Below are positions 1-25,618 of a stretch of DNA of 25,618 bases, piece by piece. Origin of the DNA: a virus; the IMG/VR virus record IMGVR_UViG_3300044701_002446, positions 1-25,618 of that record. One strand, written 5' to 3'. The translations under genes were made by a program, and so were the position numbers. Under the pieces are notes generated by a model that was given only the letters and a program-made list of their open reading frames with translations, was not told the DNA's origin and searched no databases. The stretch's first letter is position 1. Every line of letters starts with the position of its first letter.

Positions 1-569
1 ACCCGCCGGTGGATGGCTACCCTGGCAACCCGGACGGCGGCCTGCTGGCGGCATTCAACACAGCCCTGAACAACGCGTACCAGGTGGGCGGCGACGTGCT
101 CGCTGTGGACGAGCTGGTCACAAAGCTCTACAACACCTTCCAACCCGTAGGCGACGACTACGCCAGCACTAAGATTACCTACGAGGAGAGCAAGCTGGAC
201 GGCATGAACGTCGAGCTGACGCAAGGGCAGATTACCATGGCCTCCAGCTCCGGCAACACGCTTATGGGCCTGCGCGAATCTTCGCCCGGCACGTGGGACT
301 TGTACCTGCAGGACGACGCCACGCCTACACCGAACAGCGTGCTGACCATGACGGCCACCGCAGCGGCAGGCGTGGGCTACGTAGGCATCAACACCGAGAC
401 ACCCACCGCGCCGCTTGAGGTTACCGGCGCCGTCAAGATTACCGGCTCCATCACCATCACCGGAACCGTCGATGGCGTTGACGTCAGCGCCCTCAAGACC
501 ACCGTGGACGGGCTTTCCGTAGGGACCGGCGACACCTCCAACTTCTGGGCATTCTATCTTGCAGATTAA
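1..569 (+). CDS. Large tail protein, 3' end (first copy)
   Basis: This is the last 188 residues of a gene whose 5' part lies outside the window; the frame is open from base 3 and the GTG at 9 is internal, not a start. The protein is identical, residue for residue, to the C-terminus of the 827-residue tail protein at 22435-24918, although the DNA differs at about 16 third-position or synonymous sites. It contains a fibre-like stretch with the pattern VGINTETPTAPLEVTG, followed by a short predicted stalk (ITGSITITGTVDGVDVSALK). Such GINTxxPxxxLxV segments are common in phage tail fibres and in proteins with trimeric stalks. It ends TAA directly before the ATG of the fibre gene. As a gene end it is certain; the function is inferred from the full copy. 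Confidence 0.85.
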   Translation, partial: PPVDGYPGNPDGGLLAAFNTALNNAYQVGGDVLAVDELVTKLYNTFQPVGDDYASTKITYEESKLDGMNVELTQGQITMASSSGNTLMGLRESSPGTWDLYLQDDATPTPNSVLTMTATAAAGVGYVGINTETPTAPLEVTGAVKITGSITITGTVDGVDVSALKTTVDGLSVGTGDTSNFWAFYLAD

Positions 570-2261
570 ATGGCTATCAACTACAAGCTCGTCACTGCCA
601 CCAGTGACGCCTCCTCGCCGGACACCGTCTTCACAGCTACGGCAGTGGCGACGCACGTCAAGTCCATCCGGATCGCGAACGAAAGCGGCGGAGCGATGAC
701 CTACCACCTCGCCGTTTACGACAACAGCGCCAGCATCGAGGTGCCGCTGACGGTGCCTGCCACCAGCCTGCCGGACGACGACGTCGACGTGATGGTGGAA
801 CCCATCAACCTGCAGAACGGCGACTACATCAAGCTGTACAGCTCCGGCGCCGGGGTGAAGGTGGCGCTAACGCTGGCGGAGAATACGGACGTGGCCGGGG
901 CAACTACCTCGGACGACCTGGCGGAAGGCACCACCAACCTCTACCTCACAAGCGCGGAGCGGACAAAGCTGTCCGGCATCGCCACGGGTGCGGAGGTCAA
1001 CCAGAACGCATTCAGCAACGTCGCCGTAAGCGGGCAGACCACCGTCGCCGCTGACGCCAAGACGGACACGCTTACCCTCGTGGCCGGGACAGGTGTAACG
1101 CTTACCACTGATGCAGCCACGGACAGCATCACTATCGCGGCGTCCGGCTCTTCCTCCAACAGCTTCGAGACCATCGCCGTTGCAGGACAGAGCAGCGTGG
1201 TGGCCGACAGCGGCACCGACACGCTCACCCTCGTGGCGGGCACGGGCATAACCATCACCACAGACGCCGGTGCCGACAGCGTGACCATCACCAACAGCGC
1301 AACGGGTGCCAACGCCTTCGGCAACGTGGCGGTGAGTGGACAGAGCACCGTCGCGGCAGACAGCACGAACGACACGCTGACCCTTGCGGCAGGTACTGGC
1401 ATCACCTTGACGACTGACGCCAGTACGGACACCGTCACCATCACCAATAGTGTGACGGCGCCCAATACGTTTGGCACTATCGCTGTAGCTACGCAGTCCA
1501 ATGTGGTGGCCGACAGCACCACCGACACGCTGACCTTCGCCGTAGGAGGTGGTATGACCATTACCACCAACGCCACCACGGACACCATCACCTTTGACAG
1601 CGCCAACCTGGACAACGACGACGTGACCCTGCAAGGCGCCAGGGAAATTGAACTGAACGGCGAGACGCTGACCATCTTCGACGGCTTTGGTGACCTCGCT
1701 GTCTGGAACGCTGACACTTCGCTGCTTTACAACCTTGAGGTGAGCGCTCAAGTTGCGGCCAACGGGGCGGCGGTGAAGCTTTACGAAGCCAGCGACAACG
1801 GAACCAACTACGTTAGCCTGGCAGTCAACAGCACGCTTGCCTCGAACGTCACATTTACGCTGCCCACCAGCAACGGTACCAACGGCTACGTGTTGCAGAC
1901 CGATGGATCGGGGAACACGTCGTGGGTGGCAGCATCTGGCGGCGCGAGCTACAGCGCCGTCCGCACCCAGTCCGGCACCACCTACACCCTCGTCCTTGGA
2001 GATGCAGGCGACTACATCCAAACGACGAGCACGACGGCGGTGACTATCACCGTACCTCCACAGGCAGACGTGACATGGGCGGCAGACACGGAAATCTACT
2101 TCGAGCAGAACAACACGGGGCAGATAACTATCGCAGCCGGTAGCGGCGTGACCATAAACAGCAGCGAGACCCTCAAGAGTTTCGCCCGCTATTCGGTCAT
2201 CGCTCTCAAGCGGGTAGCGGAAAACGTCTGGACCTTAACCGGAGAACGCGCACTGGTATGA
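570..2261 (+). CDS. Tail fibre protein with four tandem 51-residue repeats
   Basis: A 563-residue structural protein. Residues 1-115 form a compact N-terminal domain, probably for attachment to the tail. Around 125-147 is the linker LTSAERTKLSGIATGAEVNQ, a type seen in many phage fibres before collagen- or beta-helix-like stalks. Residues 148-351 are four 51-residue repeats (F-x-x-[VI]-A-V ... AD..TDTLTL.AGTG.T.TT.A..D..TI), likely stacked beta structure. A further beta-rich part follows, then a C-terminal domain (about 466-563) with GDAGDYIQTTSTTAVTITVP and a final WTLTGE, a domain common at fibre ends. The ATG follows the preceding stop immediately, and the 3' end overlaps the next ATG by four bases. 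It probably contributes to host recognition. The 5' part recurs, diverged, at the right end of the window. Confidence 0.85.
   Translation: MAINYKLVTATSDASSPDTVFTATAVATHVKSIRIANESGGAMTYHLAVYDNSASIEVPLTVPATSLPDDDVDVMVEPINLQNGDYIKLYSSGAGVKVALTLAENTDVAGATTSDDLAEGTTNLYLTSAERTKLSGIATGAEVNQNAFSNVAVSGQTTVAADAKTDTLTLVAGTGVTLTTDAATDSITIAASGSSSNSFETIAVAGQSSVVADSGTDTLTLVAGTGITITTDAGADSVTITNSATGANAFGNVAVSGQSTVAADSTNDTLTLAAGTGITLTTDASTDTVTITNSVTAPNTFGTIAVATQSNVVADSTTDTLTFAVGGGMTITTNATTDTITFDSANLDNDDVTLQGAREIELNGETLTIFDGFGDLAVWNADTSLLYNLEVSAQVAANGAAVKLYEASDNGTNYVSLAVNSTLASNVTFTLPTSNGTNGYVLQTDGSGNTSWVAASGGASYSAVRTQSGTTYTLVLGDAGDYIQTTSTTAVTITVPPQADVTWAADTEIYFEQNNTGQITIAAGSGVTINSSETLKSFARYSVIALKRVAENVWTLTGERALV
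1011..1622 (+). repeat. Four tandem 153-bp repeats inside the fibre gene
   Basis: In-frame units begin with the Phe codons at 1011, 1164, 1317 and 1470; each is exactly 153 bp (51 residues). The units share the protein frame but have drifted at DNA level, with the fourth the most divergent. Unit length being a multiple of three and the conservation of AVxGQ, TDTLTL and AGTGxTxTTDA say that selection acts on the protein. Such repeats can expand or contract by recombination and so alter fibre length. Confidence 0.9.
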
Positions 2262-11531: not shown

Positions 11532-11695
11532 CACCGTGTGCCTCATTCAATTCGCTGACCTACAACGCCTTGACGGGGTAGGGGGGTGGAGAAAATGGGG
11601 CGCGCGGAAGGTTTACACCGGCGCAGTTGGTGGGGCGAGGATGGTATCGGGACAAATTGGGACCAAAAAAGGAAAAGGGGAAATACCTTCGCGAT
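11532..11695 (+). other. Non-coding gap between HNH and small terminase; cos candidate
   Basis: No convincing gene lies here; a 66-codon open frame has unnatural composition. The stretch holds a run of G tracts (GGGGTAGGGGGGTGGAG followed by AAAATGGGG, 11575-11600) that could form a G-quadruplex, several repeated TTGG/GGGG words, and the TACCTTCG box at its end. In HNH-TerS-TerL phages the cos site commonly lies in this position, so this is the best place to look for the packaging start; I cannot see the actual cut site. Confidence 0.4.
11684..11691 (+). promoter_or_regulatory. Putative -7 box TACCTTCG before terS
   Basis: TACCTTCG lies four bases before the ATG at 11696 and is followed by C, giving the same nine bases (TACCTTCGC) as before the portal gene. 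A TTGG at 11657 is the nearest TTG, 24 bases upstream. Would start the packaging transcript at or near the start codon. Confidence 0.6.
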
Positions 11696-12019
11696 ATGGA
11701 GTACATGAACGACGCGCAACGGGCGCAGCTGGCTGAATTGGTGGCCAAATGGAGCGCCTACAAGACGCTGAAGGTGGACGACTACGTCCGTCTCGAGCTG
11801 CTGGCCTGCGTCCTGGTGGAGGTGAGCCAGCTGCAGGCGTACGTCAACACCAACGGCACGACCTACCAGGTGGTTGGCAAGAGCGGAGACACGTACAGCC
11901 GGGCGCGGCCGGAGTACCAGCAGCTGCAGGAGCTAAGGCAGCGGGCGTCGGTCATCATCGACAAGCTCGTGAAGGACGCCGCGCCGGTGGATGACGAATA
12001 CAGCGAGCTGCTTGCCTGA
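11696..12019 (+). CDS. terS: Terminase small subunit (P27-like)
   Basis: 107 residues from ATG 11696; frames extending further upstream enter the G-rich gap. Helical protein with YKTLKVDDYVRLELLACVLV, then a beta turn NGTTYQVVGKSGDTYSRARP, then EYQQLQELRQRASVIIDKLV. The order of helix, strand pair with a Gly-containing turn, P-E-Y and final helix fits P27-type small terminases. It binds the packaging site and activates the large subunit. Overlaps the large terminase by 29 bases. Call based on pattern and position; sequence match alone is modest. Confidence 0.75.
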   Translation: MEYMNDAQRAQLAELVAKWSAYKTLKVDDYVRLELLACVLVEVSQLQAYVNTNGTTYQVVGKSGDTYSRARPEYQQLQELRQRASVIIDKLVKDAAPVDDEYSELLA

Positions 12020-13544
12020 GTACTACTTCGACGACGCCGCTGCCGACCGCGCCGTCCAGTTCATCGAGACGTTCGGCTCCCACGTCAAGGGGCACAGTGG
12101 TCCGTTCCTGCTGGAGCCGTGGCAGAAGGACGACATCATCCGCCCGCTGTTCGGGTGGAAGCGTGCCGACGGGCTGCGCAAGTACCGCACCTGCTACGTG
12201 GAGATCCCGCGGAAAAACGGGAAGTCGAACCTGTCGGCCGTCATCGCCCTCTACCTGCTGCTGGGCACCAAAGAAGCAGGCGCCGAAATCATCAGCGCGG
12301 CCGGCGACCGCAACCAGGCGCGTATCGTGTACGACATCGCCGCCCAAATGGTCCGGCAGAACAAGACGCTGGCCAGCCGGTGCCGGGTGCTGAAGAACGA
12401 AATCCACTACAAGGGCAGCTTCTACAAGTCCATCAGCGCGGAGGCCTCCACCAAGCACGGCTTCAACTGCTCGGGCATCATCTTTGACGAGCTGCACACC
12501 CAGCCCAACCGCGACCTGTGGGACGTGCTCACCACGTCGGTAGGCGCACGGGCCGAGCCGCTCATCATTGCCCTCACCACCGCCGGACACGACACCGCCT
12601 CCATCTGCTACGAGGTGCACGAGTACGCCATGCGCGTAAAGCGCGGTGAGATTGACGACCCGACCTTCCTGCCGGTCCTGTACCACGCCGACCCCGGCGA
12701 CGACTGGACGCAGCCGGAGACGTGGAAGAAAGCCAACCCAGGTTTCGGCTCCATCTGCCGCGCCGAGTACTTCGAGCAGGAGGTGATGAAGGCCAAGGCC
12801 AACCCCAACCACGTGAACACCTTCAAGCGGCTGCACCTGAACATATGGACCGGCAGTTCGACCGCGTGGATCACGGACGACGAGTTCATGCGCGGCGGAG
12901 CACCGTTGCCCGATGACGACTACCTGGCTACGCTGCCCTGCTGGGGTGGCCTCGACCTCGCCAGCACGCGCGACCTCACCGCTTTCGCCCTGCTCTTTTG
13001 GGACGAGGAGAAGAATGTGCACTACCTCAAAGTGCACCAGTTCGTGAACGAGGAGCGGGCGCACAGCAAGAAGCTGGCGGAAGGCGTGGACTACCTGGCG
13101 TTTGAGCGCGACGGCGACTTGACTATCACGCCCGGCAACGTCACCGACTACCGCATCGTGCGCGACCACATCCTCACCGCCTGCGAGAAGTACCAGGTGG
13201 CGGGCGTCGCCTTCGACCGCAAGTTCTCCACCTACATCGTGCCCGAGCTCATCGACGCCGGGGTGGAGATGCTACCCTTTGGGCAGGGCTTCTACGACAT
13301 GAGCTATCCCACAAAGCAGTTCGAGATGAAGCTGGTGGCGGGCGAAATTATCCATGGCGGCAACCGCTGCCTACGCTGGCAGGTGGGCTGCGTCAAGCTT
13401 GACCGCGACCCTGCCGACAACATCAAGGTAGGCAAGAACCGCAACAAGCTCGGCCAGCAGGTGGACGGCGTCGTCGCCTCCATCATGGCTCTGGGCATCA
13501 GCGACAACGACGACAACCTCATCACAGAAGTGTTTACCCTGTAG
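11991..13544 (+). CDS. terL: Terminase large subunit (HK97/P27 type)
   Basis: 517 residues from ATG 11991; TTG 12012 is a possible later start. Signs of Terminase_1: GPFLLEPWQKDDIIRPLFGW, Walker A EIPRKNGKSNLSA (Lys78), Walker B GIIFDELHTQ (Asp166, Glu167), coupling motif LTTAG, and the RNase H-like nuclease beginning GGLDLASTRDLTAF (Asp322) with further acids downstream. It is the ATP-driven motor and DNA cutter of packaging at the portal. The PRKNGKS form of Walker A is typical of HK97-like cos phages. Start overlaps terS by 29 bases; 17 bases, including a promoter box, separate it from the portal gene. Confidence 0.95.
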   Translation: MTNTASCLPEYYFDDAAADRAVQFIETFGSHVKGHSGPFLLEPWQKDDIIRPLFGWKRADGLRKYRTCYVEIPRKNGKSNLSAVIALYLLLGTKEAGAEIISAAGDRNQARIVYDIAAQMVRQNKTLASRCRVLKNEIHYKGSFYKSISAEASTKHGFNCSGIIFDELHTQPNRDLWDVLTTSVGARAEPLIIALTTAGHDTASICYEVHEYAMRVKRGEIDDPTFLPVLYHADPGDDWTQPETWKKANPGFGSICRAEYFEQEVMKAKANPNHVNTFKRLHLNIWTGSSTAWITDDEFMRGGAPLPDDDYLATLPCWGGLDLASTRDLTAFALLFWDEEKNVHYLKVHQFVNEERAHSKKLAEGVDYLAFERDGDLTITPGNVTDYRIVRDHILTACEKYQVAGVAFDRKFSTYIVPELIDAGVEMLPFGQGFYDMSYPTKQFEMKLVAGEIIHGGNRCLRWQVGCVKLDRDPADNIKVGKNRNKLGQQVDGVVASIMALGISDNDDNLITEVFTL

Positions 13545-13561: not shown

Positions 13562-14758
13562 ATGGCCACTATCCTCGAACGTCTCGGCATCCAAAAGCGG
13601 GCCCGCGTGGGCAAGTTCGACAGCCAAACCATAGGCGCAGAGCTGGGCGTCTACGGCATGACGGCGTCAGGCATCACCGTCAGCGAGCAGGGCGCCCTCG
13701 CCATCTCGACCGTATACGCCTGCATCTACCGCATCGCCTCCACCGTCAGCTCGCTGTCGCTGAACATCTACCTGCGCGAAGGCAACCGGGTGACGCTGGC
13801 GGAGTCGCACCCGGCCTACGACCTGTGCAAGTACGAGCCCAACAGCTACCAGACGGCTATGGAGTTTTGGGAGCGGCTGTACAGCTCGGCCCTCATGTAC
13901 GGCGTGGGCTATGCCATGATCACGCGCGACAACAGCGGCCGCCCTGTCGCCCTCGACCTGCTCGACTACTACGACGTGGAGCCGAAGCTGGTGGGTAACG
14001 AGAAGGTGTACAGCGTCCGCGATGTCGGCGTGGTCCGGCCGGAGAACATGCTGGAGCTGGCGAACATCATGCGCATGTCGCCGCTGCGCCTGCACCGGGA
14101 AAACCTGGGGCTGACGAAGGCCGCGCAGGATTTCGGGGCGGAGTACTTCGGCAACGGCGGACAGGCCACCGGCATCCTCAAGCCGAAGAACCCACTGAAG
14201 CCGGAGCAGGTGGACACGCTGCGCAAGTCGTGGAAGCACGGTGGCCCTGGCGTCAAGTTCCTCGGCGTGGACATGGACTACCAAAGCATCCAGCTACAGC
14301 CGGAGGAGGCGCAGTTCATCGAGACCCGCAAGTTCCAGGCGGAGGAGATTTGCCGCATTTTCAGCGTGCCACCCGACCTCGTGCAGGTCCCAGGACAGTC
14401 GACCTTCAACAACGTCGAGCAGCAGCACATCCAGTTTGCCCGCCACACGATTCAGCCGTGGGCCGTCCGCCTGCAGCAGGAGGTGGACCGCAAGCTCATC
14501 GCGAGCTTCGACCGGCCCCAGGTGTACAGCCGCCACGACATGACCGACCTGTACCGCGGCGACATGGCCGCCCGTGCCAATTTCTACACGCAGATGCTGC
14601 AGGCCGGGGTGCTGTCCATCAACGAGGCCCGCGCCAAGGAGGACCTGAACCCCGTCGCAGGCGGCGACATCCACACCGTCCAGGTCAACCAAATTGCCCT
14701 GTCGGAGTTCGGTGCATATTCGCAAAAAATAGCAAATGAAAACTCAGGAAGCATTTGA
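13562..14758 (+). CDS. Portal protein (HK97 type)
   Basis: 398 residues. Characteristic segments of Phage_portal are present: ALAISTVYACIYRIASTVSS near 45-65, SHPAYDLCKYEPNSYQTAME, then MYGVGYAMITRDNSGRPVAL, the clip/stem region LRKSWKHGGPGVKFLGVDMD, and the crown part EICRIFSVPPDLVQVPGQST, FNNVEQQHIQFARHTIQPWA. Twelve copies form the ring through which DNA enters and which later joins the tail. Length is normal for HK97-type portals. Its 3' end overlaps the protease-capsid gene by 23 bases. Confidence 0.95.
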   Translation: MATILERLGIQKRARVGKFDSQTIGAELGVYGMTASGITVSEQGALAISTVYACIYRIASTVSSLSLNIYLREGNRVTLAESHPAYDLCKYEPNSYQTAMEFWERLYSSALMYGVGYAMITRDNSGRPVALDLLDYYDVEPKLVGNEKVYSVRDVGVVRPENMLELANIMRMSPLRLHRENLGLTKAAQDFGAEYFGNGGQATGILKPKNPLKPEQVDTLRKSWKHGGPGVKFLGVDMDYQSIQLQPEEAQFIETRKFQAEEICRIFSVPPDLVQVPGQSTFNNVEQQHIQFARHTIQPWAVRLQQEVDRKLIASFDRPQVYSRHDMTDLYRGDMAARANFYTQMLQAGVLSINEARAKEDLNPVAGGDIHTVQVNQIALSEFGAYSQKIANENSGSI

Positions 14759-16637
14759 GCAGGAGGTCCGCGCCCAGTATGGGGAGGCGGTAGAACTGCG
14801 CGTCTCCGAGGTCCGTGCGGCCTCCGATGACACCCTAACCGTCAGCGGCTACGCTGCCATGTTTGACGACATCACCGACCTCGGATACTTCAAGGAGCGC
14901 ATCGCCCGCGGAGCGTTTGACGGGGTAATGGAGGACGACGTCCGGCTGCTCATCAACCACGCCGGCGTCCCGCTGGCACGGACGACTAACGGCACCCTCG
15001 ACCTCGAGGTGGACGAGACCGGCCTGCGCTACACGGCACGCCTGGCGGACACCACCGAAGGGCGCGACCTGTACAAGCTCATCAAGCGCGGCGACATCTC
15101 GCAGTCCAGCTTTGCCTTCACGATTGCAGACGAGGACTACGACCGCAAAGCCAACCTGCGCACGATTACCAAGATGGGCAGCCTGCTCGACGTCAGCCCG
15201 GTGACTTACCCAGCTTACCCCACTACCACGGTGGCGGCACGCATGAAGGCGGCTCAGCCCGATCCAGCCGACGAGGTGGCCGAGGAAATTGTGGAGGCTA
15301 TTGAGGAGACCCCGGCGGTAGCTCCGGAACCCGTAAAAGTGGAACGCAGTACATTCGCACAAACTAAACCCCAGACCATGAACTTGAATGAACTCAAGGC
15401 GCTCCGCGCCAAGCACTACGAGGAGCACGTTGCCCTCGTGGAGAACCCCGAGAAAGAAGGCCGCACCATGACTGAAGCTGAAGAGCAGCGGGCTGCATGG
15501 TTGGTTGGCGAGGTTGAATCTTTGGACAAGCGCATCAAGCACCGCGCGGACCACGAGAACATGGTCGCCCGCGTAGCTTACAGCGGCACGGCATCGACCA
15601 CCGAAAAGCGCGAAATCGAGCGCGTCAACGGTCACTTCAGCCTGTCGCGCGCTATCATGTCTGCAGCTAACGGCCGCAGCTTGGAGGGTGCAGAGGCAGA
15701 GTGGGCACAGGAGGCACAGCGTGAGATGCGGGCCCAGGGCTTGCAGGTTCTCGGCCAGGTGGCCATCCCGACCAAAGCTCTCCTCCGCGCATCTGCCGAC
15801 AACTTCACGGCCGGCGCTTACGGAGCTACCACCGACGGAGCGGCATTTGTTCCTGTGAACGTGGGCGGAGCTATCGAAGCACTGCGCGCACCGTCTGTCA
15901 TCGAGCAGTTGGGCACGACCACGCTGAGCAACCTCACCGGAAATGTGAAGTTCCCGCGCGTGTCTGTGAAGGCAGCAGGAACGGCTGAGGGCGAAGTTGA
16001 CGCGAATGCGGCATCGGGCCTTGAGATGGACGAGTTGACGCTGAGCCCGCAGCGGGTTTCTGCGAAGACCACCTACTCCAAGCAGCTCCTGCTCCAGGGC
16101 GGCGCAGCAGTGGACCTGGTCATCGCGCAGGAATTGCAGAACGCGATGAACGCATTCATCGACACCAAAGCGTTCGACACGCTCGACGGCGCAACCATCG
16201 ACAACCAGTCCACGGACGGCTCGACGACCCTCACCGCTGCCATCGCAGTGGCTATGGAATCGGCGGTACTTGCAGCAGGTGGAAACCTCGCAGCTGCACG
16301 GTACGTCATGTCTCCGACTGCTTACAAGTTCGCAAAGAACCTGGCGCAGGTAAGTTCTGTCTCTGCTCTGTACGACCTCGCCAGCAACACCTTCAACGGT
16401 TACCCGGCAGTGGCTACGCCGTACCTGGTGGACGCCAGCTCGGGAGTTGGACAGATGCTCTTCGGTAACTTCCAGCAGGGCTGCATCCTCGCCTACTTCG
16501 GAGGTATCGACCTGCTGGTTGACCCGTACAGCGCTGCCGGCAACGCGCAGATCGTCCTGCACGTCAACCGCTTCTTCGATTTCGACGTTCGCCAGGCTGG
16601 CGCTCTCTCGAAAATCATTGACATCAACGCTGCCTAA
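14736..16637 (+). CDS. Fused prohead protease and major capsid protein
   Basis: 633 residues in one frame. Residues 30-170 are an S78-type prohead protease: LTVSGYAAMFDD, INHAGVPLART with His75, ISQSSFAF with Ser125, and LLDVSPVTYPAYPTTTVAAR. Residues 171-214 are an acidic, Pro-rich linker. Residues 215-633 are a complete HK97-fold capsid protein with an N-terminal coiled-coil delta domain (LNELKALRAKHYEEHV onward) and a coat domain (PTKALLRASADNFTAGAY, then RVSAKTTYSKQLLLQG, ending NRFFDFDVRQAGALSKIIDI). Met215 lies where an independent capsid gene would start and has its own promoter-like box and leader (15350-15377). Codon use in the capsid part leans more to GCT, GTT and TCT. The fusion would require self-cleavage; free capsid protein may be made from the internal start. 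Confidence 0.92.
   Translation: MKTQEAFEQEVRAQYGEAVELRVSEVRAASDDTLTVSGYAAMFDDITDLGYFKERIARGAFDGVMEDDVRLLINHAGVPLARTTNGTLDLEVDETGLRYTARLADTTEGRDLYKLIKRGDISQSSFAFTIADEDYDRKANLRTITKMGSLLDVSPVTYPAYPTTTVAARMKAAQPDPADEVAEEIVEAIEETPAVAPEPVKVERSTFAQTKPQTMNLNELKALRAKHYEEHVALVENPEKEGRTMTEAEEQRAAWLVGEVESLDKRIKHRADHENMVARVAYSGTASTTEKREIERVNGHFSLSRAIMSAANGRSLEGAEAEWAQEAQREMRAQGLQVLGQVAIPTKALLRASADNFTAGAYGATTDGAAFVPVNVGGAIEALRAPSVIEQLGTTTLSNLTGNVKFPRVSVKAAGTAEGEVDANAASGLEMDELTLSPQRVSAKTTYSKQLLLQGGAAVDLVIAQELQNAMNAFIDTKAFDTLDGATIDNQSTDGSTTLTAAIAVAMESAVLAAGGNLAAARYVMSPTAYKFAKNLAQVSSVSALYDLASNTFNGYPAVATPYLVDASSGVGQMLFGNFQQGCILAYFGGIDLLVDPYSAAGNAQIVLHVNRFFDFDVRQAGALSKIIDINAA
15350..15357 (+). promoter_or_regulatory. 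Internal -7 box TACATTCG for free capsid protein
   Basis: GCAGTACATTCGC inside the protease-capsid gene nearly repeats GCAGTATATTCGC from the lysis promoter at 3411. It is followed by an A/C-rich, SD-less 20-base leader and ATG 15378 (Met215), at the start of the capsid delta domain. The layout equals that before the major tail protein gene. The bases also encode the linker residues RSTFAQTKPQT. Confidence 0.6.
15378..16637 (+). CDS. Nested major capsid protein from internal start
   Basis: 419 residues, the same frame and stop as the fusion gene, beginning MNLNELKALRAKHYEEHVAL. An HK97-fold capsid protein of about this length with an N-terminal delta (scaffold) domain is normal as a separate gene, and the start falls precisely at the domain border. 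The preceding promoter-like box and leader suggest separate synthesis, which would give the large excess of capsid protein over protease that an icosahedral head needs. Whether it is really made separately is inference. Confidence 0.55.
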   Translation: MNLNELKALRAKHYEEHVALVENPEKEGRTMTEAEEQRAAWLVGEVESLDKRIKHRADHENMVARVAYSGTASTTEKREIERVNGHFSLSRAIMSAANGRSLEGAEAEWAQEAQREMRAQGLQVLGQVAIPTKALLRASADNFTAGAYGATTDGAAFVPVNVGGAIEALRAPSVIEQLGTTTLSNLTGNVKFPRVSVKAAGTAEGEVDANAASGLEMDELTLSPQRVSAKTTYSKQLLLQGGAAVDLVIAQELQNAMNAFIDTKAFDTLDGATIDNQSTDGSTTLTAAIAVAMESAVLAAGGNLAAARYVMSPTAYKFAKNLAQVSSVSALYDLASNTFNGYPAVATPYLVDASSGVGQMLFGNFQQGCILAYFGGIDLLVDPYSAAGNAQIVLHVNRFFDFDVRQAGALSKIIDINAA

Positions 16638-16658
16638 TTAGGCAACGACCACACAGGC

Positions 16659-16687: not shown

Positions 16688-16688
16688 G

Positions 16689-16696
16689 TACTTTCG
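16689..16696 (+). promoter_or_regulatory. Putative -7 box TACTTTCG before connector genes
   Basis: TACTTTCG four bases before ATG 16701, directly after the capsid hairpin. It would restart transcription for the connector and tail-completion genes with no leader. Confidence 0.6.
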
Positions 16697-16700
16697 GGCC

Positions 16701-17267
16701 ATGGTTACCACCGTCAAGGTCACGGGCACCCCGGTGCTCAACGACATCATCACCGTCGCAGACCTCAAGACCTTCTGCCGCGTAGACAGCGCCGACGAGG
16801 ATACGCTGATGGACGCGCTGCGCCAGGCAGCTATCACCTGGTGCGAGGAGTATTGCAGCATCCGCCTCGGCGACGTCGCAGCCATAGCCTACGCCGACGC
16901 GTGGGCGCCGCTCGGCATCACCGTCGGTCCGGTGCAGAGCATCACCTCCATCACCTACCTGTCGACGGCCAACACGACGCAGACGCTCGGGGCGAGCTAC
17001 TACTACAGCGACCTGAATAGCCAAATCGCCCGCATCCGTTTCGTCAGCCCGCCGGACCTGTACGACGACGCGCTCAACCGGGTGCAGGTCAACTGCGTCA
17101 TCGGCTACCCCGAGGCGTCCGTGCCAAAGCCTATCCTGCAGGCCATCCGTATCCTCGTGGGACACTTCTACGAGAACCGCCAGCAGGTGGTCACGGGCAC
17201 CATCGCCACCGCCGTACCCTTTGCGGTGGAGGCCCTGCTCTCACCCTACCGTCTGCTGCACCCATGA
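16701..17267 (+). CDS. Head-tail connector, HK97 gp6-like
   Basis: 188 residues. Pattern of the gp6/QLRG group: ITVADLKTFCRVDSADEDTL near the start, AAITWCEEYCSIRLGD, then the PV-x-SI-x-SI-x-Y element GPVQSITSITYLS, the strand RVQVNCVIGYPEASVPKPIL, and the closing QAIRILVGHFYENRQQVVTG and LLSPYRLLHP. Such proteins form a ring under the portal and connect head to tail. Coupled to the next gene by ATGA. Confidence 0.9.
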   Translation: MVTTVKVTGTPVLNDIITVADLKTFCRVDSADEDTLMDALRQAAITWCEEYCSIRLGDVAAIAYADAWAPLGITVGPVQSITSITYLSTANTTQTLGASYYYSDLNSQIARIRFVSPPDLYDDALNRVQVNCVIGYPEASVPKPILQAIRILVGHFYENRQQVVTGTIATAVPFAVEALLSPYRLLHP

Positions 17268-17578
17268 GGATAGGAACGCTTGACCGCCGCGTAGAAATCC
17301 AAAGCCTGACCACGGTGAAGGATGACTGGAACTACGACGTGACGACGTGGGGCACGCTGGCGGAGGTGTGGGCGTCGCGCCGCGATCGCAGCAGCGGCGA
17401 AGTCACCGAGGTCATGAAGACGGTGCAGCTCAACCGCACCGAGTGGACGGTCCGCTACCGCTCCGACGTGGACACCACCATGCGCATCATGCATGACAGC
17501 GTATACTACTACATCGTGGGCGTGGTGCAGATAGGCCGCAAAGAAGGGCTGCTGCTCATCACCGAACTGCGCGACTGA
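17264..17578 (+). CDS. Head-tail adaptor (Phage_H_T_join, gp7/gp16-like)
   Basis: 104 residues starting MRIGTLDRRVEIQSLTTVKD, the typical beginning (M-x-x-G-x-LD-R-x-I-x-I-Q) of SPP1 gp16-like stoppers. It continues WGTLAEVWASRRDRSSGEVT, then WTVRYRSDVDTTMRIMHDSV and YYYIVGVVQIGRKEGLLLIT, matching the family order. It plugs the connector after packaging. Start overlaps the gp6-like gene, stop overlaps the next start (TGATG). Confidence 0.92.
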   Translation: MRIGTLDRRVEIQSLTTVKDDWNYDVTTWGTLAEVWASRRDRSSGEVTEVMKTVQLNRTEWTVRYRSDVDTTMRIMHDSVYYYIVGVVQIGRKEGLLLITELRD

Positions 17579-18219
17579 TGGACATCAGGCCCAAGTCCAA
17601 GGTCATTAAATCGCAGCTCGGCAGCTTCGGCTTTGACGGGCGCCAACTGAAGGCCATCGAGGACGAGCTGATGAGCATGCCGCTGCGCTACCGCGCCAAG
17701 GCACTTATCGGTCCTATGAAGACCGCGCTCGGCGTCACCAAACGCCAGGCACAGACGAACGCTATGGCCAGCGCCCGGACGGGCAACCTTGCCAAAGCTA
17801 TACAGGTGGTCGAAGGCAAGGACAAGCGCTACACCTACGTGGTCCTGCGCGTCAACCCGAAAACCAGCTACTACCTCCCGGCTCCTGCGTGGATGGACCG
17901 CGGCATGCCACAGCTGCAGCGTCCTATCAAGTACGCCCACCTCGTGGCCGGAGGCACAAAGCCAGGGCTGCGCATCAACCGCGAGCTACAGGACGGACGC
18001 CGCAAACACTTCACCGTACGCAACGAGGAAAGCGGCAAGGTGCACCGGCTGTCGCAGTGGCTGACCCCGAAGAAGCCAGGCATCCAGCACCCAGGCACCG
18101 AGGCCAACAACTTCATCGAGGACGCTTGGACCCTCACGCAGGACCAGGCGGAGGCCAAGTTCCGCGACATCGCCATCGACCGCATACTCAAGTTCAAAAA
18201 CAGGCAAGGCTTCACATGA
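17578..18219 (+). CDS. Tail-completion protein, HK97 gp10-like
   Basis: 213 residues. Key parts: LRYRAKALIGPMKTALGVTK, SARTGNLAKAIQVVEGKDKR, YAHLVAGGTKPGLRINRELQ and NNFIEDAWTLTQDQAEAKFR. The G-N-L-x-x-A-I helix, the YAxLVxxGT strand and the final F-x-x-AW are hallmarks of the HK97-gp10 group, usually encoded after the adaptor and before the tail terminator. There are extra basic residues in the middle. Role: completing the head-tail joint or tail end. Coupled on both sides. Confidence 0.8.
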   Translation: MDIRPKSKVIKSQLGSFGFDGRQLKAIEDELMSMPLRYRAKALIGPMKTALGVTKRQAQTNAMASARTGNLAKAIQVVEGKDKRYTYVVLRVNPKTSYYLPAPAWMDRGMPQLQRPIKYAHLVAGGTKPGLRINRELQDGRRKHFTVRNEESGKVHRLSQWLTPKKPGIQHPGTEANNFIEDAWTLTQDQAEAKFRDIAIDRILKFKNRQGFT

Positions 18220-18983
18220 TCAACCACATCATCGACATCCTGAAGGCCGACGCCGCCGTGACGGCTGTCACCACCGCCGACCGCATCTTCCCGCTCGCGC
18301 GCCTGCAAGGCAGCGCCGTGCCTGCTATTGTGGTGCAGCTGACCAACACCACGCCCGTAGACACGCACGACGCCCTCGCCACGGTAGATGAGCACCTCGT
18401 GCAGGTGACTGCCATAGGCACCACGCCGAAGCAGTGCTACGACCTGGGCGAGGTGGTGCGCCTGTCGCTTGACGGCTACCTCGGCGGCGACATCAGCAGC
18501 CTCCGCTTCGCGACGCAGGCCACCGACATCTTCGAGGCGGACGACCTGTTCACCATCACCATGCAGTTCGACGTGCACCTGCAGCGCGGCGAGGTGCAGC
18601 TGCCGACCTCTGCGGCCATGGGCTCGGACCTCAACCTGCGCGGAGCACTGTACTACCGCATCCAAGACCTGGCGCTGGTCAACGGCTACAGCTACACCTG
18701 CACCGCCGCCGACTACGTGCTCTTTGCTGACTACGCCACCGCCTCCGGCTCGGCTACCTCCACGCTGCGCCTCCCTGCCGTCGCGTCAAACGAAGGGCGC
18801 GTCATCCGCGTGAAGACCGGCAAAGGGCTGAGCAACCAGCGCACCCTCATCATACGCGGGAACGTAGCTGACGACGCAGAAATCGACGGGGCCGCTACCG
18901 TCACCATGGACCGCGACTACGACGGTATCACGCTCGTGTGCCACCGCACCGAGTGGTACATCGTACAGCGCAAAAGCAAATAA
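18216..18983 (+). CDS. DUF3168-like tail terminator with extra beta domain
   Basis: 255 residues from ATG 18216 (ATGA overlap). Residues 1-125 match gp17/DUF3168: MINHIIDILKADAAVTAVTT, RIFPLARLQGSAVPAIVVQL, HLVQVTAIGTTPKQCYDLGE, then FTITMQFDVHL. DUF3168 proteins usually stop there. Here a second domain of about 120 residues follows, with SYTCTAADYVLFADYATASG, LRLPAVASNEGRVIRVKTGK, and ending HRTEWYIVQRK. This resembles the beta domain at the end of many phage fibres, including the one at 570-2261 (YTLVLGDAGDYIQTTS, TITVPP, ending WTLTGE). It would decorate the tail terminator ring at the neck. The fusion is seen directly; its role is inference. Confidence 0.75.
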   Translation: MINHIIDILKADAAVTAVTTADRIFPLARLQGSAVPAIVVQLTNTTPVDTHDALATVDEHLVQVTAIGTTPKQCYDLGEVVRLSLDGYLGGDISSLRFATQATDIFEADDLFTITMQFDVHLQRGEVQLPTSAAMGSDLNLRGALYYRIQDLALVNGYSYTCTAADYVLFADYATASGSATSTLRLPAVASNEGRVIRVKTGKGLSNQRTLIIRGNVADDAEIDGAATVTMDRDYDGITLVCHRTEWYIVQRKSK

Positions 18984-19002
18984 TTGACACTCCCTATCTT
19001 CA
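18984..19002 (+). promoter_or_regulatory. Putative promoter before major tail protein gene
   Basis: TATCTTCA (18995-19002), a near match to TAnnTTCG, is followed by an A-rich leader of 18 bases without Shine-Dalgarno and ATG 19021. TTGAC lies at 18984, but too close to be a normal -33 box. The leader resembles the one before the internal capsid start. Confidence 0.5.
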
Positions 19003-19020
19003 CGAAAAATCTGAACCATC

Positions 19021-19551
19021 ATGGCAACTACTGGAAAAGTCCGCTCTAACGCCATCGGCGTGTACATCTCCAACACCGCCCTCCCGGACGCAGGGCTCAC
19101 CTACGCAGGCCCGACCTTCGGAGACGGCGCTACGGAAGACGACGACTTCGAGCTCATCGCCTGCGCGACTTCCGGCTCCTTCTCCGGATCTATGGAAGTC
19201 ATCGACGCGACGACCAAAGACAACGACGGCCAGCGCGAAATCCTGACCAGCGCCCTGTCGTGGTCCATGTCCTGCGACGGTCTCATCGAGTACGGCAGCG
19301 TCAGCGCCGGAGCGAAGAACACGGCCGAGCTGTTCGACATCTGGAAGAACAAGACCAAGGTGCGCATCGCATGGACCACGGGAGTAGACGGAGACGTCAT
19401 GCTGTGGGGCGACGCCTACATCACCAGCTACGAGGAGACCGCCGGCCTGAACGAGGTTGCCACCTTCGCGGTGCAGTTCGAGGGCGACGGCTCTATCACG
19501 AAGTCCACGATTGACGACACCAACGTAGCATTCACTACGAACAACGACTAA
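19021..19551 (+). CDS. Major tail (tube) protein
   Basis: 176 residues. The pattern of TP901-1-type major tail proteins is visible: CATSGSFSGSMEVIDATTKD, NDGQREILTSALSWSMSCDG, LFDIWKNKTKVRIAW, then WGDAYITSYEETAGLNEVAT and FAVQFEGDGSI. Hexamers stack to form the tail tube. It lies between the terminator and the tail chaperones as usual. It is a single-gene unit with a promoter-like box and short leader before it and another box after it, fitting a protein needed in large amounts. Confidence 0.9.
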   Translation: MATTGKVRSNAIGVYISNTALPDAGLTYAGPTFGDGATEDDDFELIACATSGSFSGSMEVIDATTKDNDGQREILTSALSWSMSCDGLIEYGSVSAGAKNTAELFDIWKNKTKVRIAWTTGVDGDVMLWGDAYITSYEETAGLNEVATFAVQFEGDGSITKSTIDDTNVAFTTNND

Positions 19552-19558
19552 CTCGCTG

Positions 19559-19566
19559 TAAATTCG
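19559..19566 (+). promoter_or_regulatory. Putative -7 box TAAATTCG before tail chaperone gene
   Basis: TAAATTCG four bases before ATG 19571 in a 19-base gap. Same box and distance as before portal, terS and connector genes. Confidence 0.55.
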
Positions 19567-19570
19567 GAGC

Positions 19571-19921
19571 ATGAATAACACGCTCCGCGGACAATTCGAC
19601 GTGAAGCTCGGGGGCGACCTCGAGCTTCCGTGCTTCCTGAACCTCCACGCCGTGAACCTCGTCTGCGAGGAGCACGACCTGTCGCTCACCACGTTTCAGG
19701 AGGCGCTGGCTGAGAAGCCCCTGAAGTTCCTGCCGCTCTTTATCTGGGCCGGGGTGCGGACGGCTGCCGTCCTGAACGACAGCGAGCCGCCTATCACCTT
19801 CGAGAAGTTCAGCGTGCTGTTTGGCTCTACCGACTGGTCAGAAATCACCGAGAAGGTGGGACTAGCTATGGCACTTGACGCGCCAAAAAAAGCGACGGCT
19901 CGGGGCCCACGGAAGAGCTAA
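19571..19921 (+). CDS. Tail assembly chaperone (gpG-like)
   Basis: 116 residues: RGQFDVKLGGDLELPCFLNL, HAVNLVCEEHDLSLTTFQEA, then PLFIWAGVRTAAVLNDSEPP and WSEITEKVGLAMALDAPKKA. Short acidic proteins with this layout, encoded between the tube and tape-measure genes, are gpG-like chaperones that hold the tape measure during tail assembly. Near its 3' end is a run of seven A in the correct phase for a -1 shift into a second open frame that lacks its own convincing start, as in the lambda G/GT pair. Confidence 0.85.
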   Translation: MNNTLRGQFDVKLGGDLELPCFLNLHAVNLVCEEHDLSLTTFQEALAEKPLKFLPLFIWAGVRTAAVLNDSEPPITFEKFSVLFGSTDWSEITEKVGLAMALDAPKKATARGPRKS

Positions 19922-20250
19922 CGCTTCGAGCCCTGTACGTCGAAGCTCTGCGCCGCGGCCTCAAGCCGCCCGACTTCTGGTGTAGTACCTTCGGGGAGGT
20001 GATGGTCATGCTACGCACATACGAGCACAGCGACGAGCTGGCGTGGATGCGGACCTCGGCGATGATGGCGATGCAGGCCAACATCCACCGCGGAAAGAAT
20101 TCACGGGCGTATGAGTGGAACGACTTCAACCCGTACGCTTCGCAGCGTCGCAGGGCCACGCCACCCCCGAAGATTACCCCCAAGATGGCCGACCTGTTCG
20201 GCCGCATGGGAAAAACTATGAAGCATGGCCAAGAGAAACGCGGTACTTAA
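19571..20250 (+). CDS. Tail assembly chaperone, -1 frameshift product (gpGT-like)
   Basis: Joined frames: 107 codons to the AAA ending at 19891, then -1 with the next codon at 19891 (AGC) through the stop at 20250, total about 226 residues. The T part continues SDGSGPTEELTLRALYVEAL, KPPDFWCSTFGEVMVMLRTY, then KNSRAYEWNDFNPYASQRRR. FW-x-x-T-x-x-E is the usual mark of the T domain in siphovirus chaperones. The joined form bridges tube and tape measure. The 3' end overlaps the tape-measure start by 26 bases. A GTG at 19999 preceded by TACCTTCG (19986-19993) is an alternative start for a short form. Confidence 0.75.
19885..19891 (+). promoter_or_regulatory. Slippery heptamer AAAAAAA for -1 frameshift
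   Basis: Seven A bases phased A-AAA-AAA in the chaperone frame, followed by GCG. This is a canonical -1 slippery site. About 10 bases later is a G+C-rich stretch with GCTC/GAGC arms and the palindrome GGGCCC that might act as a weak stimulator. It sits 30 bases before the frame-0 stop. Confidence 0.75.
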
Positions 20251-22435
20251 TATCATATTTGGCGCCGACACCAAGGAGCTGGACAAAGCTCTGCAGGGTG
20301 TAGCGAAGCGCCTGCGCAGCACGGCCGACGACCTCAACGGTCTGGGCCAGTCGCTGTCGCTCGGCCTCACCGCGCCGATTGTGGCGTTCGGGGCGCTGGC
20401 CACCAAGAACGCTGTCGACAGCGCCAAAGCTATCGCGCAGGTGGAGGCGGCGGTGGAATCTACGGGCATGGCCGCAGGCCGCAGCGTGGCACAGCTGGAG
20501 GAGTTGGCTGGCGGATTGCAGCGCATCAGCTTGTACGACGACGACCAAATCCTCAAGGAGGTCACGGCCAACCTGCTCACCTTCACAAAGGTCACCGGCA
20601 CGAACTTCGACAAGGCGCAGGTAGCTATACTCAACCTGTCGACCCGCCTGGGCACGGACCTGACGAGCGCGTCGGTGCAGGTGGGTAAAGCACTCAACGA
20701 CCCTATTAAAGGCGTGACGGCCCTCGGTCGCGCCGGGGTGCAGTTCACCGCACAGCAGAAGGAACTCATCACCACGCTCACGGAAAGCGGCGACGTAGCC
20801 GGAGCGCAGTCAATTATCCTTGCTGAGCTGGAGACCCAGTTTGGAGGAGCAGCGGAGGCAGCGGCCAACGTCGACCCCTACACGCAGCTGGCCAACGAGA
20901 TAGGCAACCTGTCGGAGGACTTCGGCGCCATCATCAACGATGCCATCAAGCCGCTCGTGCGTTTCGTGCGTGAAGCGGTGGACGCTATCAAAAGCTGGAG
21001 CGACGAGACAAAGGCAACGGTGCTCGTTGTCGGTGGTCTGCTCGCTGTCCTCGGCCCCACCCTCATCGCGGTGGCTGGCCTCATCAACGCCTACACCACT
21101 ATCAAGGGCGCCCTGCTGACGGCTAAGACCGCTCAGCTTGGATTTAACCTGTCCATTCTCGCCAACCCGTACGTGGCTGCAGCAGCAGCTGTCGGCGTGC
21201 TGGTGGCGGCCATGGTGCTGTACAAGACGGAGACCGACAACGCGCGCAAGGCGAAACAGGATTTCGACAACGTCGTCGCAGGGAAGTCGGGCCGCTCCGT
21301 CATGGACGAGGCCGCCAAGGAGTTGAGCCGCTTAAACGGTGAACTGCAGAACGCTCGCACCAAATACGACAACCTCAAGCGCGCCGCCGAGTCGCAGGGT
21401 GCCAACGTCACTGAGCGCACCGCGCGGCAGATCGTGGAGACGAGCAAGCTGGTCACCGAGCTGGAGCGCCAGCAGTTGGCTGCACAGAAGGTGTACCAAA
21501 CGGCCAGCAAACAGGAGCAGCAGCGCATCCAGGACACAAAGACGCTGCAGTCAAATACCGAGGCGCAGGACGAGAACACCGTCGCAGTCACCAACAACGT
21601 GACCGCACGCGACACCGCATACGAGACCTTCCGCCGCAACACGGCTGCCTACATGGCCGAGCAGCAGGCGCTGGAGGACCTGAACGCGGAGATGAACAAC
21701 ACCGCCCTGACGCTCGCCGACCTGGGCGAAGGGCCGTCGGTGGCGGAGGCTATCCTGGGCAAAGGGCCCGAAGCTCCTGCGCCTATGAACCTGATGGACC
21801 TCGAGCTGCCCGACGAGTCTGTCACCGAAGAGGCCATCGAAGGAGCGGACGCCTACGTCGCAGCCTTCAACCGGGCACGCGACGCAGCGGCAGAGTTCAA
21901 CAGCGCCGTAGCGCAGGCCGTGGAGCAGGCAGCCGAAAGCATGGCCTACAACTTCGGGGAGATGCTCGGCACGGCCATGGCTACAGGCGACGGCATGCAG
22001 GGCCTCGGGCGCATGGTGCTCGGCACCCTCGCCGACCTCGCCGTGCAGGTGGGTAAAATTGCCATCGGCGTAGGTATCTCCGTCGAAGGCATCAAGAAGG
22101 CGCTGCAGTCGCTGAACCCAGTCCTCGCCATTGCCGCAGGTATCGCCCTCGTGGCGCTCGGCTCCTATGCCCGCACCCGCCTGAGCGAAAGCGCCGGCGG
22201 TGGGGTGCCTGCCTTTGCGCAGGGCGGCCTCGTCACGGGCCCGACGCTCGCCATGGTGGGCGACAACAGGAGCGGAAAGGAGGCCATCATCCCCTTCGAG
22301 CGCATGGGCGAGTTCCTGCAGATGGCAGGAGCACAGCAGCAGAACGTCGTCGTGACCGGCCGTATCTCCGGCAACGATATCCTACTCACTAACGACCGGG
22401 CCAGCCGCGACCGGTCACGCATCCGCGGATTCTAA
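20225..22435 (+). CDS. Tail tape-measure protein
   Basis: 736 residues. Begins MAKRNAVLNIIFGADTKELD, KALQGVAKRLRS, the usual tape-measure start. Residues 60-250 contain the TMP core (VEAAVESTGMAAGRSVAQLE, GTDLTSASVQVGKALNDPIK, ALGRAGVQFT). Two hydrophobic segments (about 264-287 and 305-333) may enter the host membrane at DNA injection. Residues 340-480 are long charged helices. The C-terminus has further hydrophobic helices and a tail FAQGGLVTGPTLAMVGDNRS, GKEAIIPFERMGEFLQ, typical of phage and prophage TMPs. It sets tail length; by the rule of about 1.5 angstrom per residue the tail would be near 110 nm (inference). Confidence 0.92.
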   Translation: MAKRNAVLNIIFGADTKELDKALQGVAKRLRSTADDLNGLGQSLSLGLTAPIVAFGALATKNAVDSAKAIAQVEAAVESTGMAAGRSVAQLEELAGGLQRISLYDDDQILKEVTANLLTFTKVTGTNFDKAQVAILNLSTRLGTDLTSASVQVGKALNDPIKGVTALGRAGVQFTAQQKELITTLTESGDVAGAQSIILAELETQFGGAAEAAANVDPYTQLANEIGNLSEDFGAIINDAIKPLVRFVREAVDAIKSWSDETKATVLVVGGLLAVLGPTLIAVAGLINAYTTIKGALLTAKTAQLGFNLSILANPYVAAAAAVGVLVAAMVLYKTETDNARKAKQDFDNVVAGKSGRSVMDEAAKELSRLNGELQNARTKYDNLKRAAESQGANVTERTARQIVETSKLVTELERQQLAAQKVYQTASKQEQQRIQDTKTLQSNTEAQDENTVAVTNNVTARDTAYETFRRNTAAYMAEQQALEDLNAEMNNTALTLADLGEGPSVAEAILGKGPEAPAPMNLMDLELPDESVTEEAIEGADAYVAAFNRARDAAAEFNSAVAQAVEQAAESMAYNFGEMLGTAMATGDGMQGLGRMVLGTLADLAVQVGKIAIGVGISVEGIKKALQSLNPVLAIAAGIALVALGSYARTRLSESAGGGVPAFAQGGLVTGPTLAMVGDNRSGKEAIIPFERMGEFLQMAGAQQQNVVVTGRISGNDILLTNDRASRDRSRIRGF

Positions 22436-24918
22436 TGGCATACAACCTCCGACTATACAGCGAGTTCACGGACTACGAAGGCGACACGTGGCGCATCAAT
22501 ATCTACCAGGACAGCTACGGCGGCGCCAGCTCAAGCTTCACGCTCGGCGCCGACGGGTTTGTCCTGTCGTATGAAGGCGACAACCAAAGCCGATACCAGC
22601 CTATCATCGGCTCGTCCGTGGAGATACCGTTCACCGAGACGACCGCCGCTCACACCAACTTCCTCAACGCCATCGCCACCTCGGCCGAAGGCGACTTCAC
22701 GGTGGGCATCTTCCGCGATCCCGACGGAGCGAACACGCTCTACTGGGGTGGCGTCCTGCTCGGCGAGCAGTGCGTGCTGGTGGACGAGGCTATGCCGCGG
22801 CGGGTGCAGCTTAAGGCGGCCGATGACCTGGGCAACCTGCAGCAAATCCTATACAACAACGCGGGCGCAGGCTACGGAGGACACGACACCGTGCCGGAGC
22901 ACCTCATCATCGCCCTGTCGTGGGTGCGCCACAGCCACCTGTGGTCTTCCGACACGGTGATGCTCAAGTACGTGGACGACTTTTTCCCTGCGAACGCGCC
23001 CACCGCCAGCAACTACCTGAACCAGGTAACCGTCTACCACAACGGATTCTACAACCCCGACGAGGACGGCGTCAACCAGTTCCTGCCCATCTACACCATC
23101 CTCGAAAGTTTCGCTACCACCTTCAATGCCCGCATCTTCCAGGCGAACGGCACGTACTGGTTCCTGCCTATCGGCGCGCACCAGTACGACGACACCATCA
23201 ACTACTACACGGTCACCAAAGGCGGCACCATCAGCGGCTCGAGCACCAGCCTCGCCACCTCCCTGACCATAGACGGCGACGCTATCAAGCTCCGCGGCTA
23301 CGAGCACAGCTACCTGCCGCCGCTCAAGTCGGTGGTGCGGACGCAGAACTACAGCGGAAACATCCCGCGCATCTTTGACGGGCTGCACACCAAAGCTGAG
23401 TTTGGCACTACGCTCAGCGACGCTGACTTCGACTTCGACGCAGACAGCATCTTCCGCCTCACCGGCACGTTCCGCTGCACGCAGCCAGGCGACAACACGA
23501 CCACAGGCAACACGCGCCTGCGCCGCTTCCGCCTGCGCTTCACCCTCAAAGTCGGCAACTACTACCTCAAGCGGGTGGCCACCTTCGCAGGAACGGCCTA
23601 CGACTTCCAGATGGAGGCAGGCGAGGTGCTCACCTACACCCCATTCACATACGGGGCTACCTCGTGGGAACTGACCGCCAGCACCTACGACGTCATCACG
23701 CCATACTACGACGTCAACCGCGGGCTGACCGGGGATACCACTATGGTATTGCCGCTTGACTTCCTCACGCCCGAGCTGACGGCCGCCTCCAACGGCATGG
23801 ACCTGACTCTGGCCATCGCCAACATCAGCTTCAACGGCAGCGCCTCGTCTGTGACTAACGTCAACACCAACTACAACGTGCAGCTGCTCCGCGTAGATCA
23901 GGTGGACGAGGACGAAACCAACGGGGACGAGGTGACCTTCACAGCGACCGGCCTGTCGAGCAGCCGCGTAGAATACGAGCAGGCCAAAGTGTACGTCGGC
24001 GACGCTATCAGCACCAGCAGCCTCGGCGTCCTGCGCGTGGTCGATGCGCCGGACCTGCCGCTCGCGACGGGGTGGCAGTCGCTCAACTACACCAGCACGG
24101 CTATAGGCATTCACCTGCTCGGCGTGCGTGAGGTGCTGGGTGGGCAGCGGGTGCACACAAAGACGCAGCGCGGCACCTTTTACAAGGGGCCAATCGAGAT
24201 GTACAACCTGCTCAGCGATGGCGGCGACCTGTACCTCCCATTTCAGCTGACCTTCTACGCTAACCGGCGGCAGGTGGAGGTAGAGTCCTTCTTTGTCGCC
24301 CGCGACCTGACCGGCATCACGAGCGACGACGGCGGCCGCCGCAACGTCAACCCGCCGGTGGATGGCTACCCTGGCAACCCGGACGGCGGCCTGCTGGCGG
24401 CATTCAACACAGCCCTGAACAACGCGTACCAGGTGGGCGGCGACGTGCTCGCTGTGGACGAGCTGGTCACAAAGCTGTACAACACCTTCCAACCCGTAGG
24501 CGACGACTACGCAAGCACGAAAATCACCTACGAAGAGAGCAAGCTGGACGGCATGAACGTCGAGCTGACGCAAGGGCAGATTACCATGGCCTCCAGCTCC
24601 GGCAACACACTTATGGGCCTGCGGGAATCTTCGCCCGGCACGTGGGACCTGTACCTGCAGGACGACGCCACGCCTACACCAAACAGCGTGCTCACCATGA
24701 CGGCCACCGCAGCCGCAGGCGTTGGCTACGTAGGCATCAACACCGAGACACCCACCGCGCCGCTTGAGGTTACCGGCGCCGTCAAGATTACCGGCTCCAT
24801 CACCATCACCGGAACCGTCGACGGCGTGGACGTCAGCGCCCTCAAGACCACCGTGGACGGGCTATCCGTAGGGACCGGCGACACCTCCAACTTCTGGGCA
24901 TTCTATCTTGCAGATTAA
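22435..24918 (+). CDS. Large tail/baseplate protein with fibre-like C-terminus
   Basis: 827 residues, start ATG in a TAATG overlap with the tape measure. Residues 1-160 (YSEFTDYEGDTWRINIYQDS, then SYEGDNQSRYQPIIGSSVEI, FTVGIFRDPDGANTLYWGGV) fit the N-terminal domain of the large tail proteins that follow the tape measure in Bacteroidota siphophages, in the place of a tail-tip or hub protein. The middle (about 170-620) is beta-rich with no motif I can name. Residues 640-827 are fibre-like (FQPVGDDYASTKITYEESKL, YVGINTETPTAPLEVTG, stalk and FWAFYLAD end). Likely role: tail tip and link to the fibre encoded next. The last 188 residues equal the protein at 1-569. Confidence 0.8.
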   Translation: MAYNLRLYSEFTDYEGDTWRINIYQDSYGGASSSFTLGADGFVLSYEGDNQSRYQPIIGSSVEIPFTETTAAHTNFLNAIATSAEGDFTVGIFRDPDGANTLYWGGVLLGEQCVLVDEAMPRRVQLKAADDLGNLQQILYNNAGAGYGGHDTVPEHLIIALSWVRHSHLWSSDTVMLKYVDDFFPANAPTASNYLNQVTVYHNGFYNPDEDGVNQFLPIYTILESFATTFNARIFQANGTYWFLPIGAHQYDDTINYYTVTKGGTISGSSTSLATSLTIDGDAIKLRGYEHSYLPPLKSVVRTQNYSGNIPRIFDGLHTKAEFGTTLSDADFDFDADSIFRLTGTFRCTQPGDNTTTGNTRLRRFRLRFTLKVGNYYLKRVATFAGTAYDFQMEAGEVLTYTPFTYGATSWELTASTYDVITPYYDVNRGLTGDTTMVLPLDFLTPELTAASNGMDLTLAIANISFNGSASSVTNVNTNYNVQLLRVDQVDEDETNGDEVTFTATGLSSSRVEYEQAKVYVGDAISTSSLGVLRVVDAPDLPLATGWQSLNYTSTAIGIHLLGVREVLGGQRVHTKTQRGTFYKGPIEMYNLLSDGGDLYLPFQLTFYANRRQVEVESFFVARDLTGITSDDGGRRNVNPPVDGYPGNPDGGLLAAFNTALNNAYQVGGDVLAVDELVTKLYNTFQPVGDDYASTKITYEESKLDGMNVELTQGQITMASSSGNTLMGLRESSPGTWDLYLQDDATPTPNSVLTMTATAAAGVGYVGINTETPTAPLEVTGAVKITGSITITGTVDGVDVSALKTTVDGLSVGTGDTSNFWAFYLAD

Positions 24919-25618
24919 ATGGCTATCAACTACAAGCTCGTCACCGCCACGAGTGACGCCTCATCTCCGGACACGGTCTTCACCGCTACGGCAGTGGCAA
25001 CGCACGTCAAGTCCATCCGGATTGCAAACGAAAGCGGCGGAGCACTCACCTACCACCTCGCCGTCTACGACAACAGCGCCAGCATCGAGGTGCCGCTGAC
25101 GGTGCCTGCTACCAGCCTGCCGGACGACGACGTGGACGTGATGGTGGAACCCATCAACCTGCAGAACGGCGACTACATCAAGCTGTACAGCTCCGGCGCC
25201 GGGGTGAAGGTGGCGCTAACGCTTGCTGAAAATACTGACGTTGCTGGAGCGACCACCTCGGACGATTTGGCGGAAGGCACCACCAACCTCTACCTCACGA
25301 GCGCGGAGCGGACAAAGCTGTCCGGCATCGCCACGGGTGCGGAGGTCAACCAGAACGCATTCAGCAACGTCGCCGTAAGCGGGCAGACCACCGTGGCCGC
25401 TGACGCCAAGACGGACACGCTTACCCTCGTGGCCGGGACAGGTGTAACGCTTACCACTGACGCAGGTGCGGACAGCATCACCATCTCCGCAAGTGGCTCG
25501 GCTTCCAACAGCTTCGAGACCATCGCCGTAGCAGGACAGAGCAGCGTGGTAGCCGACAGCGGCACCGATACGCTCACCCTCGTGGCGGGCACGGGGATCA
25601 CCATCACCACAGACGCCG
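24350..25618 (+). repeat. Diverged terminal repeat, right copy (left copy 1-1269)
   Basis: Bases 24350-25618 align without gaps to 1-1269 at an offset of 24349. By hand I count about 63 mismatches, roughly 95% identity. Of these about 16 lie in the tail-gene part and change no residue; the fibre part has five residue changes. Stretches such as 1-126 and 955-1040 are identical. This defines a unit of 24349 bp but is not an exact repeat. Confidence 0.95.
24919..25618 (+). CDS. Tail fibre protein, 5' part (second copy, cut by window end)
   Basis: Starts at the ATG directly after the tail gene's TAA and stays open to the last base (233 codons). Compared with residues 1-233 of the fibre at 570 it differs at five positions: one Met to Leu in the N-terminal domain and four Ala/Gly/Thr/Ser exchanges in the first 51-residue repeat. 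The repeats (first two) and the LTSAERTKLSGIATGAEVNQ linker are present. It is truncated by the end of the sequence, not by a mutation. Confidence 0.9.
   Translation, partial: MAINYKLVTATSDASSPDTVFTATAVATHVKSIRIANESGGALTYHLAVYDNSASIEVPLTVPATSLPDDDVDVMVEPINLQNGDYIKLYSSGAGVKVALTLAENTDVAGATTSDDLAEGTTNLYLTSAERTKLSGIATGAEVNQNAFSNVAVSGQTTVAADAKTDTLTLVAGTGVTLTTDAGADSITISASGSASNSFETIAVAGQSSVVADSGTDTLTLVAGTGITITTDA

Follow-up and report, generated by a model that had tools for sequence, protein, structure and literature searches.

Assemblers that work on de Bruijn graphs break contigs where multiple paths are available, which leaves sequences of the length of the largest k-mer (maxK) at the contig ends (PMC10914622), and in the JGI workflow metaSPAdes is run with k-mers up to 127 (PMC10604447). 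The lengths of DTRs cluster at k-mer sizes, according to the authors of CheckV (PMC8116208). The record considered here, IMG/VR virus record IMGVR_UViG_3300044701_002446, was analysed over its whole stretch of 25,618 nucleotides (the window), the last part of which is an inexact copy of the first. We argue below that the contig is very probably a strain chimaera written by a de Bruijn-graph assembler at k = 127, and hence an artefact of assembly rather than a novel form of genome. The coordinates of the features discussed are collected in Table 1.

Table 1. Features of the window; positions are those of the 25,618-nucleotide stretch
Feature	Position	Strand	Remarks
Shared 127-mer, first copy (proposed fork vertex)	1..127	+	identical to 24350-24476; first difference at base 128
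Allele A (proposed): 3' part of tail gene and start of next tail/fibre gene	128..1269	+	continues unbroken into 1270 onwards
Tail/fibre-like protein, 563 aa	570..2261	+	PHROGs tail fibre match; repeated part at 24919-25617
Probable physical end of the genome (CGGCGCA, 7 bases)	11619..11625	+	first base 11626 in contigs of six close relatives, last base 11618 in one
Terminase large subunit	11991..13544	+	Pfam PF20441 and PF03354, PHROG 9
Portal protein	13562..14758	+	Pfam PF04860
Prohead protease-major capsid fusion (HK97 type)	14736..16637	+	PF04586 and PF05065 in one frame
Tail protein, 827 aa	22435..24918	+	open frame across repeat boundary; repeated part at 3-569
Shared 127-mer, second copy	24350..24476	+	contig 3300043427_000879 ends exactly at 24476
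Allele B (proposed): sister-strain branch, dangling at contig end	24477..25618	+	95% identical to A; B bases in relatives

Two versions of one tail-gene segment

Direct alignment of positions 1-1269 with 24350-25618 gives 95.0% identity with 63 mismatches (31 transitions and 32 transversions) and zero gaps; alternative offsets of the two ends reach only 21-34% identity. The repeat takes in the 3' end of the gene for the 827-residue tail protein (188 codons) and the 5' end of the tail/fibre-like gene that follows it (233 codons). The differences are concentrated at the third codon position, which accounts for 54 of the 63. Within the tail-gene part (3-569) all 16 are silent, 15 at position 3 and one a silent change at position 1, and in the next gene (570-1268) 39 of 47 fall at position 3 and five amino acids are replaced. 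For the two genes together, comparison of the start copy with the end copy yields a dS of 0.19 and a dN of 0.008 (ratio 0.04). The initial annotation, which was made from the letters alone, had described a gap-free alignment with about 63 differences, had called every tail-gene difference silent and had seen in the two ends alleles subject to strong purifying selection. All of this is borne out, the figure of 63 being exact, and neither of the two outcomes that it had named beforehand as speaking against its reading, identical copies or an even spread over codon positions, is seen.

Relatives whose sequence spans most of this segment provide an independent view of the two copies, carrying the base of the start copy (A) at 26-36 of the 63 sites and that of the end copy (B) at 17-22. 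Among full relatives L005 is the nearest; it agrees with A at 36 of these sites, with B at 22 and with neither at five. Because L005 carries B at 22 of 63 sites yet departs from the bases common to both copies at only 20 of 1206, B is a natural allele and not a corrupted version of A. Measured against L005, dN/dS is as low as 0.01 and 0.03 for the two copies, and the pair therefore looks like ordinary strain variation. To judge from these comparisons, both end versions are natural alleles. Diversity-generating or phase-variable switching of the fibre was considered as a source of the differences and rejected, since they are almost all silent.

Phage genes and a probable physical genome end

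The window encodes the head genes, of HK97 type, and the tail genes of a tailed phage, with tape measure and major tail protein genes in addition to those of Table 1. No terminase at least 60% identical to that of the window is present among the INPHARED phage records. A protease-capsid fusion with 62% identity is found on JAGYIQ010000025.1 (L118), a MAG contig filed under Pirellulaceae, and offers no more than a hint as to host or habitat. The 827-residue tail protein has a weak PHROGs tail-fibre match at residues 767-816, and the gene downstream of it contains internal imperfect repeats at 1174-1574 (67-68% identity). DNA similarity to several distant relatives (L021, L022, L120 and L126) starts abruptly at about 24454-24464, which corresponds to residue ~675 of the tail gene. 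For L022 the two sides of this boundary were compared with the window, giving 40% protein identity before it and ~90% DNA identity after it, a contrast suggestive of cassette exchange at the tail tip/fibre end.

The relatives also bear on how this phage genome ends. In thirteen of their contigs, drawn from different samples, the first base corresponds to window position 11626 or lies no more than one base away from it, about 365 bases before terL (L026, L028, L029, L030, L032, L033, L036, L038, L039, L041, L046, L047 and L051). The contig of one relative, 3300034118_000624 (23,311 bp), runs from 11626 round to 11618, and thus lacks the seven bases CGGCGCA that are present in the window and in junction-spanning contigs. 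This contig is the only one in which the right-hand genome end is seen, and the arrangement suggests a linear genome with cohesive ends, the short 3' overhang, deduced from that single contig, probably having been lost in library preparation. The window passes through 11619-11625 unbroken, and its own ends are therefore not packaging ends. Headful packaging fits poorly on two counts. The terminal redundancy is not identical, the copies differing at 63 of 1269 bases, and the thirteen starts before terL point to a fixed physical end in relatives. The circularly permuted phage proposed in the initial annotation is accordingly not supported. A further relative, IMGVR_UViG_3300044617_000721 (L109, L110; 25,843 bp), has a 172-base terminal overlap with four mismatches that lies across the genome-end junction. 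Its longest identical run is 120 bases, so the 127 pattern described below is absent; this record, too, is a closed genome that would escape a test for exact end repeats.

The shared 127-mer

The first 127 bases of the end repeat are identical, a point absent from the initial annotation, and form its longest identical run, the next longest being 98. When the differences were placed at random, an initial run of exactly 127 arose in 0.04% of trials. Besides the window, only three IMG/VR contigs contain this 127-mer, as a scan of the whole viral collection showed. One of them, IMGVR_UViG_3300043427_000879 (L009; 10,714 bp), is 100% identical over its whole length to window positions 13763-24476, and terminates on the final base of the 127-mer. 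Its other end, at 13763, directly follows a base at which the window is unlike the relatives L031 and L098; from there on both match the window for 431 bases, a pattern as expected of another fork. The stretch shared by the two ends of the window is exactly as long as the largest k in the JGI workflow, and another contig of the same population breaks at the same vertex; together, the 127-base shared start and the contig that ends on it suggest that an assembly graph built at k = 127 forked here.

Such ends are not peculiar to this locus. For 64 whole contigs of relatives, each end was checked against the other loci of the analysis, and 15 of the 128 match another locus over exactly 127 bases, as against 3 of 3000 random internal cuts; the 15 involve 13 contigs and are not all independent, some being reciprocal matches between two contigs of one sample. 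Pairs from the same sample include L063/L064 (at both ends), L007/L022 and L055/L053. A search for further contigs that fork back onto their own start showed that, across all loci compared, the first 60-mer recurs internally in the window only; it also brought up one unrelated locus that repeats near its end.

These observations can be accommodated by a simple sequence of events. Two strains of one tailed phage would have been present together in the sample, sharing the 127 bases at 1-127 and 24350-24476. The genome of strain A would close as a loop of 24,349 bp that runs from the 127-mer back to the 127-mer. The assembler, whose identity and setting (k = 127) we infer for this record, would have written the loop once and then taken the other exit from the 127-mer, into strain B, for 1,142 bases. 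With high confidence, then, the contig comprises a closed 24,349-bp genome followed by 1,142 bp (24477-25618) that belong to a sister strain occurring alongside it. No 127-base fork is seen at 25618, the last 52 bases of the window occurring in no other contig among the viral contigs searched. Neither these 52 bases nor a degenerate pattern over the cluster of variable sites near 870-970 yielded a second contig with allele B, and the same pattern returned no contig with either allele. The stop of branch B at 25618 likely reflects coverage or the repetitive fibre gene.

Competing structures and known systems

One alternative, in which the terminal redundancy is an ordinary one and base errors of sequencing or assembly have gathered at a single end, draws on the fact that contig ends are sometimes poorly supported and on the four mismatches in the 172-base terminal overlap of 3300044617_000721. 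We give it almost no credence: with 54 of 63 differences at codon position 3, and B bases recurring in relatives at 17-22 sites, base errors are refuted as the source of the differences, just as the initial annotation had maintained in setting sequencing error aside. Alternatively, one genome might carry two diverged tail/fibre segments at its ends through recombination or duplication. Duplication and exchange of tail-fibre genes are common among phages, and distant relatives do share this segment at ~90% DNA identity, next to an N-terminal part that is 40% identical. However, what is repeated here is the beginning of the contig itself, and it lies in register with a closed genome of 24,349 bp; the near-complete contigs of relatives (22.6-25.8 kb) are similar in size and hold one copy each; and the contig ends break inside both genes, not at gene boundaries. 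Such a locus is extremely improbable.

The initial annotation had left a choice between the joining of two co-existing strains and a true tandem, in which two related genomes are covalently linked, as a mixed concatemer or as tandem prophages, and the second is represented by its first 1.3 kb. The copies are indeed in the right order and frame, and the alleles are as divergent as those of different strains. A tandem nevertheless would not lead one to expect exactly 127 identical bases where the contig starts, or an independent contig that ends on the same base, and a capsid-protein scan of bacterial genome contigs found no close prophage, only the 62% relative in the Pirellulaceae MAG contig. 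A true tandem is consequently very unlikely, and the exact 127-base start and the end of L009 point instead to the graph fork. A related possibility is that co-infecting strains were joined in a mixed concatemer by recombination in the tail gene, which would reduce the 127-base identity to coincidence; we consider the chance of this to be minute. It is the other option of the initial annotation, two co-existing strains joined in one sequence, that the 127-base identity and the end of L009 support, and the unit length of 24349 bp that it gave for that case holds.

If the contig is a strain chimaera, the biology behind it is ordinary, namely a phage represented by two strains whose differences are silent, and the artefact records true strain diversity. 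Its relevance lies in the handling of data. An exact end-repeat test would miss this record, which would be a complete 24,349-bp genome with 1,142 bases of another strain attached. Chimaeras of this kind could be caught by searching for the first k bases of a contig further inside the same contig.

The closest described systems are both products of the assembly graph. The maxK end overlaps described for COBRA (PMC10914622) resemble the present case in that breaks at forks leave identical ends of the largest k, which is 127 in metaSPAdes. They differ from it in that the overlap here is with the contig's own start, and is followed by 1,142 bases that lead into a sister strain. The DTRs of k-mer length noted by the CheckV authors (PMC8116208) are alike in another respect, since there too a repeat of the length of the k-mer is the mark of a circle closed in the graph rather than of a repeat with a biological origin.
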